Origin: Meiothermus luteus
Lineage (GTDB): Bacteria; Deinococcota; Deinococci; Deinococcales; Thermaceae
DNA length: 48,352 nucleotides
Reading direction: 5' to 3'
NCBI RefSeq assembly: GCF_003574085.1
Contig: NZ_QWKZ01000005.1
Location: forward strand, 1-48,352
Under the pieces are notes generated by a model that was given only the letters and a program-made list of their open reading frames with translations, did not search any database and was not told where the DNA came from. Position 1 is the stretch's first letter. Each line of letters begins with the position of its first letter. Position numbers and translations under genes: made by a program. Shown piece after piece: positions 2,174-46,350 of this stretch.

Positions 2174-2250
<77 letters not shown>

Positions 2251-25643: not shown

Positions 25644-27263
25644 TTAACGCCCCCGGTGCAGCTCGCGCAGGAGCCTCGGGGCCTCCCGTTCCCAGGTGTC
25701 GTAGATGGCGCTAAGGCGGCCGAAGAAGTTGGCCGCCTGGTAGCCCTGGAACCCGGGAGGAAACCGGGCCAGACCGGTTTGGAGGGTGCGGATGGCGGCC
25801 TCCTTCTCCCCCCGGGCGGCTTTCAGCCTGGCCAGCTCCAGGTAGTCCAGGGGGTTGGCCAGGGGAAAGACCTCTAGAATCCTCTCCAGGAGCCGCTCCC
25901 GCTCGGCCGGGGTCTGGGCGTAGCCCAGCCAGGCGCGGTAGACCCAGAGGCTTTTGGGGTTGAGCCCGGCGGCCCTCTCCAGGAGGGCCCGGGCCTCCTG
26001 GGCTGAGGACCCCTTCAGCTCAGCCAGGACCGCCTGGCGGTGGCCCAGGTGGCGCCCTATGGCGCAGTCCTGCCCGCAGGGGGCGTACCACCAGGCGGCC
26101 AGCGCCAGGCCCAGCCCCAGGCCGGGGAGACGGGGGGCCAGGGGGCTGGCCGATGGGGCGGTCTGCGCGTGGACCGCCCCGAGGGCGGCGAAGGCCAGCA
26201 TCATCACGCTGGGGTACATCCCGGTTGCGTCAAAGGCCAGGGTGGCCCAGAGCCCGGCGGCCCCCAGGGTCCAGGGCCAGGCCGCCGAGCGCCAGCCCCG
26301 CCAGAGGATGGCCCCGAGCGCCCCCATCAGCAGGACCAGGCGCGGCCAGCCCCCGGTGGCGGCGGTCTCGAGGTAGTAGTTGTGCGCGCTGGCGAAGAGG
26401 ACCCCAGGGTACCGCTGGTAGGCCGGGAGGACATCCCGGAAGCTGCCGTTGCCCGTTCCCAGGGGGGCTTCCAGCGCCATGCCCAGCGTCTGCCGCCACA
26501 TGAGCCAGCGGCTGCCGATGCTGCCCTCCTCGCGGGTGTCCTGAAGCTGCCTGGTCAGGCTGGCCTTCAGTCCGAGGGCGTTCTGGATGGGGGAGAAGGG
26601 GAGCGCGCGGTCCAGGGCGAAGACCGCGAGCACCACCGCCCCCAGCCCTATCCCGATCCGCCCCAGCCCTACCCCCTCGCGCCAAAGCCGCCACACCAGC
26701 AGGGGCCCCATCAGCAGGAGGGGCAGGTAGACGGCTCGAGCCCCCGACTGGAGCGCCGCGAACAGCGCCGCCGCCAGAAGGAGCCCGCCCAGAAGGGGCC
26801 ACCTGGAGCGAAGGGTCCACACCGCGGCCAGGGGGATGAGCCCCAAGGCCTGGGCGCCGGTCACGTAGTGGACGGAGCCCGAGAAGTACATGACCAGCCC
26901 CGCCCAAGCCAGGCTCAGCGTGGAGAGGAGCCCATGGCCCAGCAGGAGCAGGCCCAGCCCCACCAGGCCGAGGAGCCATCCCCCCGCGGCGAAGGCGGCC
27001 AGGTACGCGAGCTCCCAGAGGCCCAGCACCAGGGTGTTGCCCGGGGTCAGGCTCCAAAAGAGGGTGAGCAGGCCCAGGCCCCACCAGGCCCAAAGGGCCA
27101 GCGGAATTCTCGATGGCAGCAAAAATATAGTTCCAATCGCCGTGCATACCAACCAAAGAGGTGGAGGGTCGTAATGCGAGAAGACTTGCTGCCAAGCCCA
27201 CAAAAGCGTTGCAAGTAAAGCGAGTGCGGCCAACAAAGTACGAATATAACCGGCCTCGAGCAC
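25644..27263 (-). CDS. O-antigen ligase/Wzy-like membrane protein with TPR-like tail
   Basis: A 539-residue polytopic membrane protein. Ten or more hydrophobic segments fill residues 1-390, with the Wzy_C-type periplasmic loop GTGNGSFRDVLPAYQRYP and the conserved SAHNYYLE. The C-terminal 130 residues are soluble with TPR-like helices (ALLERAAGLNPKSLWVYRAW). This is the layout of O-antigen ligases and of pilin O-oligosaccharyltransferases (PglL/PilO type); pilins lie 3 kb away. GTG 27261-27263 is the start, 6 bp after a TACAAT box. The first ~48 codons are clearly AT-richer than the rest, suggesting a recombination joint inside the gene. Confidence 0.85.
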   Translation of the reverse strand: MLEAGYIRTLLAALALLATLLWAWQQVFSHYDPPPLWLVCTAIGTIFLLPSRIPLALWAWWGLGLLTLFWSLTPGNTLVLGLWELAYLAAFAAGGWLLGLVGLGLLLLGHGLLSTLSLAWAGLVMYFSGSVHYVTGAQALGLIPLAAVWTLRSRWPLLGGLLLAAALFAALQSGARAVYLPLLLMGPLLVWRLWREGVGLGRIGIGLGAVVLAVFALDRALPFSPIQNALGLKASLTRQLQDTREEGSIGSRWLMWRQTLGMALEAPLGTGNGSFRDVLPAYQRYPGVLFASAHNYYLETAATGGWPRLVLLMGALGAILWRGWRSAAWPWTLGAAGLWATLAFDATGMYPSVMMLAFAALGAVHAQTAPSASPLAPRLPGLGLGLALAAWWYAPCGQDCAIGRHLGHRQAVLAELKGSSAQEARALLERAAGLNPKSLWVYRAWLGYAQTPAERERLLERILEVFPLANPLDYLELARLKAARGEKEAAIRTLQTGLARFPPGFQGYQAANFFGRLSAIYDTWEREAPRLLRELHRGR

Positions 27264-27269
27264 GGCTTT

Positions 27270-27275
27270 ATTGTA
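27270..27275 (-). promoter_or_regulatory. Leaderless -10 box, minus direction, of the divergent Wzy pair
   Basis: TACAAT on the minus strand ends 6 bp before GTG 27263 and shares two base pairs with the plus-strand box at 27274-27279. Confidence 0.6.
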
Positions 27276-27279
27276 GAGT
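27274..27279 (+). promoter_or_regulatory. Leaderless -10 box, plus direction, of the divergent Wzy pair
   Basis: TAGAGT ends 7 bp before ATG 27287 and overlaps the opposing TACAAT box by two base pairs. Confidence 0.55.
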
Positions 27280-27286
27280 TCGAGCT

Positions 27287-28648
27287 ATGACTGGTCGCGT
27301 TTTTTTGCATCAATGGTGGTGGCCGATTTATGCCGCTATCTATGTATTGTTGTTTTATCCGACCTTTCTGGTAAACCCAGGCGCCAGTCTGGGCAATGTG
27401 CTCTCCGATGGTTATTTGGTAAGGGCATATGTCACAGTCTTTTTTTTGGGAGTCGGTTTTCTTCTCGAGTGGTCGGTACATTCTGATTTGCGGCTTCGCG
27501 ATGCTCGCCGTTTGCCGCAAGCGCTACGTCAACACCCGGCCGTTGCGCTGGCTTTGCTATACGGGTTCTGGTCTTTGATAGCAGCCTTTTTCACACTGGA
27601 GCCAATAGCAGCGCTTACAGGTTCGTTTTTTGGTAGTGGCGATGGCGCATTCTTTGGACTAGCTCTGGTTGGGGTTTTCGTGCTGGTCTATTTGCAAACT
27701 TTGCGCGATCCGGGGCTTCCACAGCGCTTGGCCTGGTCTGTTGTGCTCTCGGGTGTCTTGATGGCGTCACTTGCTATAATCGAAATAGCTACCCGCCAGG
27801 GGGTTTTCTATCCGATCCATCCCGCAAGCTTACCAATGGTAACCTTCCCACAAAAAGGGCACCTGGCAGGATTTTTTGTTTTGGTTGTTGGAATTTTGCT
27901 CGGTTTTTTACGACAATCAAGTGGAGTTGTGATACCTGCTCTTTTCGTCTTAAGCATCGCATTGGGCGCGACCTATAATCGGGCAGCTTTGCTAGCAGTG
28001 AGTATCGGTGGACTGTGGTTGGCGGGGAAATGGCGGCAGATGCTTGTGGCTGCCCTGATAGTTTGCTTGGGACTCTCAATAGGCTGGCTAATGGTTCGTA
28101 CACTCAATTCCGAAGGTGAGCGCCAACTTACAAACAATACGACTGCGCAAACCCGCTATTACATCTGGAAAGCCGCCATAGGGGGTATTTTGGAACGACC
28201 CCTGACGGGGTGGGGAGCAGGCCAGTTTGATACGATTTGGCCAAGGTTTTTGTCTAAAGAGGAACTTGACAAATATGCTCAGATGGAGTGGGGCGTCAAA
28301 CGCGTTAAGGATGTTTTTCTAACCCCCAAAGCCTCGCCGGTACTCCTTGTGGAGCAAACCGATGGCACAGTGGCAATCAAAGGAATTTCTGTTTGGAAAG
28401 CCCACAATCAGTTTTTGGATATCGCTTTGTTGCGTGGTCTAGTGGGTTTGTTATGTTATCTAGCATTGTTTTGGTATGTGTTTCGTTCCGTGCATATATT
28501 CCCTCCGCTGGCAATGGGGCTAATTGCCTATCACGCATTTTTGTTCCTTTGGTTCGCCCCTTTTCACATCGAGGGAACTTTGTGGGCTGTTCTTGGAGGC
28601 GCCTGCGCTACAGGAAGCCTACTTGGACGAAAAACGGATAACATTTGA
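27287..28648 (+). CDS. O-antigen ligase/Wzy-like membrane protein
   Basis: A 453-residue polytopic membrane protein with about ten hydrophobic segments. It has the family block LSIALGATYNRAALLAV, a periplasmic loop with GWGAGQFDTIWPRFL and the conserved KAHNQFLD. No TPR tail is present. It resembles the third Wzy-like protein (28619-30043), and the two are probably old paralogues. GC content is about 40-50%, far below the flanking core genes, consistent with transfer. Likely role: polymerising or transferring glycan to lipid or to pilin; the acceptor is unknown. ATG 27287 lies 7 bp after TAGAGT; upstream codons in the frame overlap the divergent gene and are rejected. It overlaps the convergent gene by 30 bp. 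Confidence 0.83.
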   Translation: MTGRVFLHQWWWPIYAAIYVLLFYPTFLVNPGASLGNVLSDGYLVRAYVTVFFLGVGFLLEWSVHSDLRLRDARRLPQALRQHPAVALALLYGFWSLIAAFFTLEPIAALTGSFFGSGDGAFFGLALVGVFVLVYLQTLRDPGLPQRLAWSVVLSGVLMASLAIIEIATRQGVFYPIHPASLPMVTFPQKGHLAGFFVLVVGILLGFLRQSSGVVIPALFVLSIALGATYNRAALLAVSIGGLWLAGKWRQMLVAALIVCLGLSIGWLMVRTLNSEGERQLTNNTTAQTRYYIWKAAIGGILERPLTGWGAGQFDTIWPRFLSKEELDKYAQMEWGVKRVKDVFLTPKASPVLLVEQTDGTVAIKGISVWKAHNQFLDIALLRGLVGLLCYLALFWYVFRSVHIFPPLAMGLIAYHAFLFLWFAPFHIEGTLWAVLGGACATGSLLGRKTDNI

Positions 28649-30043
28649 AGCTTCAGAATGAATCGAGGCCCAGGCAATAGCTGCAATTAACAGATGCAAG
28701 GGCTCGGTTCCGATGACCGGAAACCAGGCAAGGTAGTAGATCGTCAAAGCTGTCAATACCCAAATCCAGGCGAGACTTCGGTTTCTCCAGCTTCTCCATA
28801 TTGGATACAAATACAATAACAACCACAACATCATGCTCAAACCACCAAAAGCCACCAGGCGATCTAGCCAGAGGTTGTGGGCCTTGTCGAGGATGATAGG
28901 GTAGCTTTGTTTGATGTTGGTTTGACCTCCAAATTGCTCAAACTCCACCTGAAGATATTTGCTACGAATCTGCTCTTTTGGGGGCAGCACAACCGTAACC
29001 TTGCTCACACGTGCGTCCTGTGGCCAGGCAAGCTCCAGTTTGATCAAGTCTAGTAAATCGGTTACAGGTGGGTCTCGCAACAGGGCTAGCCTGAAGGCAT
29101 CCGGCCCACCACCAATCCAGGGTGCACCTGGAATTTTGCCCAAGCTTTGATAGGCTAGTGCCCAGATTTGGAAACGAATTTCTAGGGTATTGGTCGCAGT
29201 ATACTCCCGCGTAAAACCTAGGCGGTTTGGCACAATGAACTGGACGCAAAGTACACAGACGATAGCAAACCCAGAAAGAAAGAACACACTCCAGGTACGA
29301 TAAGCTAGAATCAGGCCCACCAAGCCAACAATCAGGGCGATCAAGGCCGCACGATTGGTAGTTGCGCCAAGGGCCAACGCGGATAAAAAAACCCCAAGTA
29401 TCAGCAAGTAGCGGTAGTTTCTATTGGCTTGCTGAGTGAATAGCCATATCCCCAGCATTATGGTGGGCAAGAGGAGGCCAGCCAACATGCCCGGGTGGCT
29501 GAGGCTGCCAACTGGGGTGGCATACATGCTCCACTTCACCAATGGCCCAATGGGGTCAAGCTGCAGGCGTTGTAGAAGGGCCAGGACTGCTTGAAGGGTG
29601 CCACCAGCGAACAGTGCCAGCAGGAGCTTGTTGCCTAGTCCTGGCAACGTCAAGACTAACTGATAGGCCACAATGACGTATAGAACTAAACCCACATGGT
29701 ACAGCAAGCCATCAAGCCGTCGCTGCGGCCCAAGTAGAACATAGCTCCAATCGTCGCGTGCATTGAAGCTGCTTACCAATACAAGTAGTAAGTGAGTCAA
29801 TAGCAGAAAAACAAAGGGTTCGCGCCACCGTATTTCCCTGAGACTAAGCATTCCCAATAGGCCAATCAACAACAAAACAAGCACCTTTGGAAAAAGCTGA
29901 AACATTTCCAGCGCCTGGGCGAGTTCCGTATCAAAGATGAGACCGGGTTTCCAAAACAGAGCCCCAGGAGCTAAGACCACTGGAAACAAGATGGCAAATG
30001 CGATTAGAGCAATCGCAGCACGATGCTGTTTCGATGTTTTCAT
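28619..30043 (-). CDS. O-antigen ligase/Wzy-like membrane protein
   Basis: A 474-residue polytopic membrane protein with LSALALGATTNRAALIALI, GGGPDAFRLALLRD and KAHNLWLDRL, the Wzy_C-type signatures shared with the neighbouring paralogue. The N-terminus has a short basic tail (MKTSKQHRA) before the first membrane segment. GC content is low (about 48%). It lies directly downstream of the two pilin genes on the same strand but behind their terminator, with its own TATAGT box 7 bp before the ATG. A pilin glycan transferase or polymerase is plausible; this is inference from context. Confidence 0.83.
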   Translation of the reverse strand: MKTSKQHRAAIALIAFAILFPVVLAPGALFWKPGLIFDTELAQALEMFQLFPKVLVLLLIGLLGMLSLREIRWREPFVFLLLTHLLLVLVSSFNARDDWSYVLLGPQRRLDGLLYHVGLVLYVIVAYQLVLTLPGLGNKLLLALFAGGTLQAVLALLQRLQLDPIGPLVKWSMYATPVGSLSHPGMLAGLLLPTIMLGIWLFTQQANRNYRYLLILGVFLSALALGATTNRAALIALIVGLVGLILAYRTWSVFFLSGFAIVCVLCVQFIVPNRLGFTREYTATNTLEIRFQIWALAYQSLGKIPGAPWIGGGPDAFRLALLRDPPVTDLLDLIKLELAWPQDARVSKVTVVLPPKEQIRSKYLQVEFEQFGGQTNIKQSYPIILDKAHNLWLDRLVAFGGLSMMLWLLLYLYPIWRSWRNRSLAWIWVLTALTIYYLAWFPVIGTEPLHLLIAAIAWASIHSEASNVIRFSSK

Positions 30044-30050
30044 TAGATTT

Positions 30051-30056
30051 ACTATA
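30051..30056 (-). promoter_or_regulatory. Leaderless -10 box of the third Wzy-like gene
   Basis: TATAGT on the minus strand ends 7 bp before ATG 30043; no Shine-Dalgarno site. Confidence 0.6.
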
Positions 30057-30551: not shown

Positions 30552-30899
30552 TTACTGGCCGATGGTGAAGACTGTATTATTGGCGCTGATGACGGTAACA
30601 ACAGGGGCGTTGGCGTTGCCAGTAACATTGCAGTCAGAAACCGTAGTCCCAGGGTTAGCGACGCTGTAGCTGCCAGCGCTATAACCGGTCTTACAGCTAC
30701 CCGTAATCAAACTTCTGTTGGGGTCTTCAGCCACATAGGCCAGGGCAGCCTTGTAGACGTTCTGGCCGTAGGCCTGGGCGGCGCGGTCGACGGCGGTGCG
30801 GCGGGCGTTGAGCAGGTTGGGGATGAGCACCGCAGCCAGGATGCCGATGATGGCAATGACGATGAGAAGCTCAATCAGGGTGAAACCAGACTTCTTCAT
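30552..30899 (-). CDS. Type IV pilin (first of tandem pair)
   Basis: A 115-residue prepilin: leader MKKSG, then [20 protein letters not shown] with Glu5, helix [18 protein letters not shown], and a small head with cysteines in TGSC and VSDC. TAGGAG lies 7 bp before ATG 30899. The region coding the conserved N-terminus has host-like GC, but the head-coding part drops to about 50% GC from about 30720 leftward. A long leader of about 100 nt separates it from its TATACT box. As the promoter-proximal gene of the pair it may be the major pilin. Confidence 0.93.
   Translation of the reverse strand: MKKSGFTLIELLIVIAIIGILAAVLIPNLLNARRTAVDRAAQAYGQNVYKAALAYVAEDPNRSLITGSCKTGYSAGSYSVANPGTTVSDCNVTGNANAPVVTVISANNTVFTIGQ

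Positions 30900-46273: not shown

Positions 46274-46350
<77 letters not shown>

Follow-up and report, generated by a model that had tools for sequence, protein, structure and literature searches.

The window analysed here is a stretch of 48,352 nucleotides from Meiothermus luteus (contig NZ_QWKZ01000005.1, positions 1 to 48,352). In it, two divergent genes, wzy1 (25644..27263, minus strand, 539 aa, GC 0.70) and wzy2 (27287..28648, plus strand, 453 aa, GC 0.50), are separated by a gap of 23 bp (27264-27286). Both encode membrane proteins with a Wzy_C (O-antigen ligase) domain (Pfam PF04932, E-values of 6e-11 and 4.5e-11, respectively), with bit scores of 42.7 for wzy1 and 43.2 for wzy2, above the gathering cut-off of 31.7; wzy1 has in addition a weak C-terminal TPR match. 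A third gene, wzy3 (28619..30043, minus strand), is convergent with wzy2 and is a Wzy_C-like paralogue of it (30% identity over 293 aa, E = 5e-13), with a PF04932 score of 27.6 bits, below the cut-off. None of these Wzy genes received an NCBIfam name, and no solved structure resembling wzy2 in sequence was found.

The preliminary description of this locus assigned wzy1 and wzy2 to the same family. This holds for the shared Wzy_C domain, but the best alignment between the two proteins covers 52 residues only (E = 0.003), and wzy2 is much nearer to wzy3 than to wzy1. The GC content of wzy2 and wzy3 (about 0.50 across 27287-30043) is low compared with 0.70 for wzy1 and about 0.64 for the window, which suggests that wzy2 and wzy3 were acquired horizontally. 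Beside the three Wzy_C genes lies a gene for a prepilin-type protein with an N_methyl motif and a weak PilA4 match (30552-30899, minus strand). Given this neighbour, we can guess at a possible role of the Wzy genes in pilin glycosylation or assembly, or in surface glycosylation.

The start codons were judged by conservation together with the enumeration of all possible start codons, as a simple gene-calling routine overlooked wzy2 and misplaced the start of wzy1. On the minus strand, the GTG at 27261..27263 (CAC on the plus strand) is the first start in frame after the upstream stop. Its position is kept in relatives as either GTG or ATG; in one congener (G005) the codon is ATG at the identical distance from the conserved core described below, which is good evidence for the predicted start of wzy1. 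On the plus strand the frame is open back to a GTG at 27161, yet relatives align from the ATG at 27287..27289, and the N-terminus is conserved from this codon onwards. Each of the two start codons is also the predicted 5′ end of its mRNA. Both mRNAs would accordingly be leaderless, with predicted transcription start sites 24 bp apart.

Read directly, the gap consists of GGCTTT-ATTGTAGAGT-TCGAGCT. Its central ten base pairs (27270..27279, with no strand assigned) form the predicted core of a bidirectional promoter. On the minus strand, the −10 box TACAAT of wzy1 (27270..27275, ATTGTA on the plus strand) is found 6 bp from the GTG, while the −10 box TAGAGT of wzy2 (27274..27279, plus strand) is found 7 bp from the ATG. 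The two hexamers overlap by the TA at 27274-27275, which corresponds to positions −12 and −11 of both predicted promoters. The start codons, gap, boxes, two-bp overlap and spacers are exactly as they had been described. The opposed −10 boxes thus overlap with their key positions coinciding, in the form ANNNTANNNT at 27270-27279, which is the arrangement of the 23-bp class of bidirectional promoters. At the same time, a TANNNT motif precedes the start codon by 6 bp (minus) or 7 bp (plus), as is characteristic of leaderless genes in Deinococcus-Thermus.

The spacers AAAGCC (minus) and TCGAGCT (plus) contain no GGAG-like Shine-Dalgarno motif. Neither a TTGACA-type −35 element nor an extended −10 (TGn) is recognisable in either direction in the five species compared below. 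Likewise, no structured RNA was found in the gap: the only Rfam matches in the window are two tRNA genes (2174-2247, plus strand, and 46277-46350, minus strand).

We then compared the locus among congeneric species. Five of them, including the window's own 2.87-Mb Meiothermus genome (G000), have the divergent pair together with the core, and the gap measures 23, 23, 23, 24 and 23 bp in G000, G011, G004, G007 and G005, respectively. The positions of both start codons are kept, and the spacers are 6 bp long on the minus side and 7-8 bp on the plus side. The core consensus is ATTGTA(G/A)AGT. Nine of its ten columns are invariant compared with 2 of 13 in the spacers (Fisher p = 0.0006, to be taken as indicative only since the sequences are related). 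Averaged over all pairs of the five, identity is 96% in the core and 50% in the spacers; for the third codon positions of the first 20 codons it is 46% in wzy1 and 65% in wzy2. For example, the plus-strand gene of G005 is just 40% identical to wzy2 and nonetheless has an identical core.

The core is not essential to the gene pair. In two further congeners (G014 and G010) a wzy2-like gene adjoins a whole or partial wzy1 and the shared core is absent. A third genome, G008, keeps a core, ATTGTAGGGT (TACAAT/TAGGGT), beside wzy1, with its different wzy2-like gene about 170 bp away. That gene has a TAAACT of its own 7 bp before its ATG. We also considered a decayed wzy2 start beside the G008 promoter: the region is colinear with G004, but the part to the right of the core aligns no better than shuffled sequences, and we make no claim for this candidate.

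This conservation bears on the alternative of a promoter in a single direction, with the opposite −10 match incidental and its gene read from further upstream. Symmetric −10 boxes do ease incidental matches on the reverse strand, and the two boxes are not equally constant: TACAAT is invariant in the five species and also present in G008, while the plus box, the weaker of the two, is TAGAGT in four of the five species, TAAAGT in G007 and TAGGGT in G008. Nevertheless, both boxes, the near-constant spacers and both start codons are kept in all five species, no TTGACA-like promoter was found nearby at a fitting place on either strand, and in Thermus the doubly leaderless spacing is far commoner than a shifted spacing (see below). 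We therefore regard a promoter in one direction only as unlikely.

To place the locus in a wider context, we examined the distribution of −10 motifs in samples of 400 kb from each of three genomes (two of Meiothermus, one of Thermus), drawn as 20-kb stretches. TANNNT peaks 6-8 bp before start codons: it is found at 6 bp in 7-12% of genes and at 7 bp in about 6%, compared with about 1% elsewhere. Between divergent pairs (about 1.25 Mb), opposed −10 boxes sharing the TA (a separation of −2) recur, and most scrambled motifs give 0-1 matches. One scrambled motif, TNNANT, gives seven matches; overlapping real −10 boxes as it does, it serves poorly as a control.

We further counted the pattern CAY-N(6,7)-ANNNTANNNT-N(6,7)-RTG in 50 genomes of the family, using as controls the reversed pattern and a pattern with the start codons placed 3 bp further out. 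The 27 Thermus genomes (genus g5, identified as Thermus from kinship and translated sequence) have a mean of 17.4 sites per genome compared with 0.74 (reversed) and 1.07 (shifted). The 18 Meiothermus genomes have a mean of 9.7 compared with 5.6 and 4.9, an excess of about twofold or less. Wilcoxon p values for these counts overstate independence because the genomes are related. For the window's own genome, a claim of clear enrichment was dropped, with 5 sites found compared with 1 and 4 in the two controls. The remaining families of the order mostly show a small excess or none.

Of the four sites in the 400-kb Thermus sample, three are supported by gene calls as real divergent pairs and the fourth has a called gene on one side only. 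The four matches in the sample from Meiothermus G007 included no called pair. The Meiothermus counts thus hold much chance, and the case for the locus in Meiothermus rests mainly on its own conservation. Taken together, conservation and recurrence of the arrangement exceed what is expected by chance. The preliminary description had considered the arrangement unusual; with about 17 sites of the same geometry in each Thermus genome, it is ordinary in its own bacterial family, and its main value is that of a clear example open to testing.

A second instance of the same core is found in many Thermus genomes between divergent uvrC-like and dipeptidase-like genes (named from reading their translated sequences rather than from a database match). 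These genes have the same 10-mer and the same 23-bp GTG/ATG gap as wzy1/wzy2, with different spacers. That the 10-mers are identical is in part built in, as the 10-mer before an ATG was the query; this does not apply to the gap, the start codons or the divergent orientation. This core is located at position ~1500 of the Thermus loci L071-L081.

The uvrC/dipeptidase instance is relevant to another explanation, namely that the conserved 10-mer is mainly the operator of a regulator instead of a promoter. A short conserved block in a divergent gap would fit an operator. Against it, the block is 10 bp long without a wider dyad, its flanks drift, it is spaced from the start codons as −10 boxes are and the same 10-mer and gap occur at this unrelated gene pair. 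We consider an operator extremely improbable.

The reading that we favour, with a probability of about 0.8, is that the gap is a bidirectional sigma-A promoter of the 23-bp class giving one leaderless mRNA in each direction. The two opposed −10 boxes would share their first two bases, TA, so that RNA polymerase could bind in either orientation and open the same TA step. In either direction, initiation would then fall 6-8 bp downstream, on the start codon of wzy1 or of wzy2, and the geometry of the promoter would set the distance between the two codons. The start sites, the leaderlessness, the dependence on sigma-A and the co-expression of the two genes are what we infer from this arrangement.

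Both components of this reading have precedents. In Deinococcus-Thermus, TANNNT located 6-7 bp before an ORF is a working −10 element for leaderless expression (PMC12340547), and such −10-adjacent leaderless expression concerns about 30% of ORFs (PMC12340547; PMC3160421). For bidirectional promoters, PMC12825309 gives start sites 18 bp apart as the commonest, with 10 and 23 bp also common. Given the leaderless mode of TANNNT, the known bidirectional classes and the predicted spacing of 24 bp, one core serving two leaderless mRNAs is the simplest explanation.

The arrangement accordingly resembles the bidirectional promoters of bacteria and archaea (Warman et al. 2021, 2026; PMC12825309, PMC10268837) in its opposed, overlapping −10 boxes and in its predicted start spacing, which lies inside the 7-25 bp range that defines them and adjoins the common 23-bp class. 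It differs in that both mRNAs are predicted to be leaderless and no −35 element is visible; those promoters are mainly from E. coli and Salmonella, and leaderless mRNAs are not treated in the accessible text of these reports. It likewise resembles the leaderless −10-motif genes of its own phylum, with TANNNT 6-7 bp before the start, except that those are described as single genes (PMC12340547; PMC3160421), and the main texts of both papers use neither 'divergent' nor 'bidirectional' for leaderless promoters. The csoR-cueA divergon of Bradyrhizobium liaoningense (PMC5057107) also has overlapping −10 boxes between divergent genes. There, unlike here, csoR alone is leaderless (shown by RACE), cueA has a 42-nt leader, and the region includes −35 boxes and a CsoR operator. 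Among the open-access papers searched, none describes a bidirectional promoter of this class that is leaderless in both directions, which is weak evidence of absence; csoR-cueA, with its one leaderless side, comes nearest. While bidirectional promoters and leaderless −10 genes are each known, the doubly leaderless form may be new.

On the favoured reading, one promoter core can make up an entire divergent intergenic region, leaving neither side with a 5′ UTR, ribosome site or −35 box. Thermus seems to use this solution routinely, with about 17 sites in each genome and about 12 more of the 18-bp class, and such recurrence implies that the spacing of many divergent start codons is set by the geometry of the promoter. 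The geometry consequently offers a simple way to correct annotated start codons, and the sites lend themselves to tests of polymerase competition in which neither leaders nor −35 boxes play a part. Regarding the 18-bp class, in which the boxes overlap fully as TANNNTA between divergent starts, we found 12.4 sites per genome compared with 0.6 for the control in Thermus and 10.9 compared with 3.9 in Meiothermus.

Next, we considered whether sharing a core makes the two genes mutually exclusive. The preliminary description had proposed that RNA polymerase could occupy only one direction at a time and that expression may be exclusive as a result. The first part is supported by the geometry, the conservation and the leaderless mode of the phylum: with overlapping −10 boxes serving two leaderless genes, the core is likely occupied by one polymerase at a time. 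The second part is not supported. According to PMC12825309, the five bidirectional promoters tested in E. coli all have a basal activity too low for their two directions to compete, and output in one direction did not rise when the other was removed. Competition was seen only after a direction had been made stronger or had been activated, and strong activation on one side then repressed the other.

It is conceivable that the same promoter makes the genes reciprocal through polymerase competition, strong use of one direction shutting the other. The shared TA at −11/−12, which makes simultaneous binding implausible, and the E. coli repression on strong activation would fit with this. However, basal activity was too low in the five E. 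coli cases, no −35 or TGn element is present in either direction in the five species, no activator site was identified, and the spacers are not conserved. Such competition is, in our view, quite unlikely. The stronger version, a reciprocal switch in which activating one direction silences the other and the cell alternates between wzy1 and wzy2 as surface or pilin glycan enzymes, is highly doubtful.

With no −35 boxes and no known activators, co-expression of wzy1 and wzy2 at modest levels is the better guess under the bidirectional promoter. The arrangement thus probably does not make the two Wzy-like genes mutually exclusive, and the shared core does not turn them into a switch. Finally, the third gene of the cluster, wzy3, has a predicted −10 box of its own, TATAGT (30051..30056, minus strand), 7 bp before its ATG, and its mRNA is probably leaderless as well.
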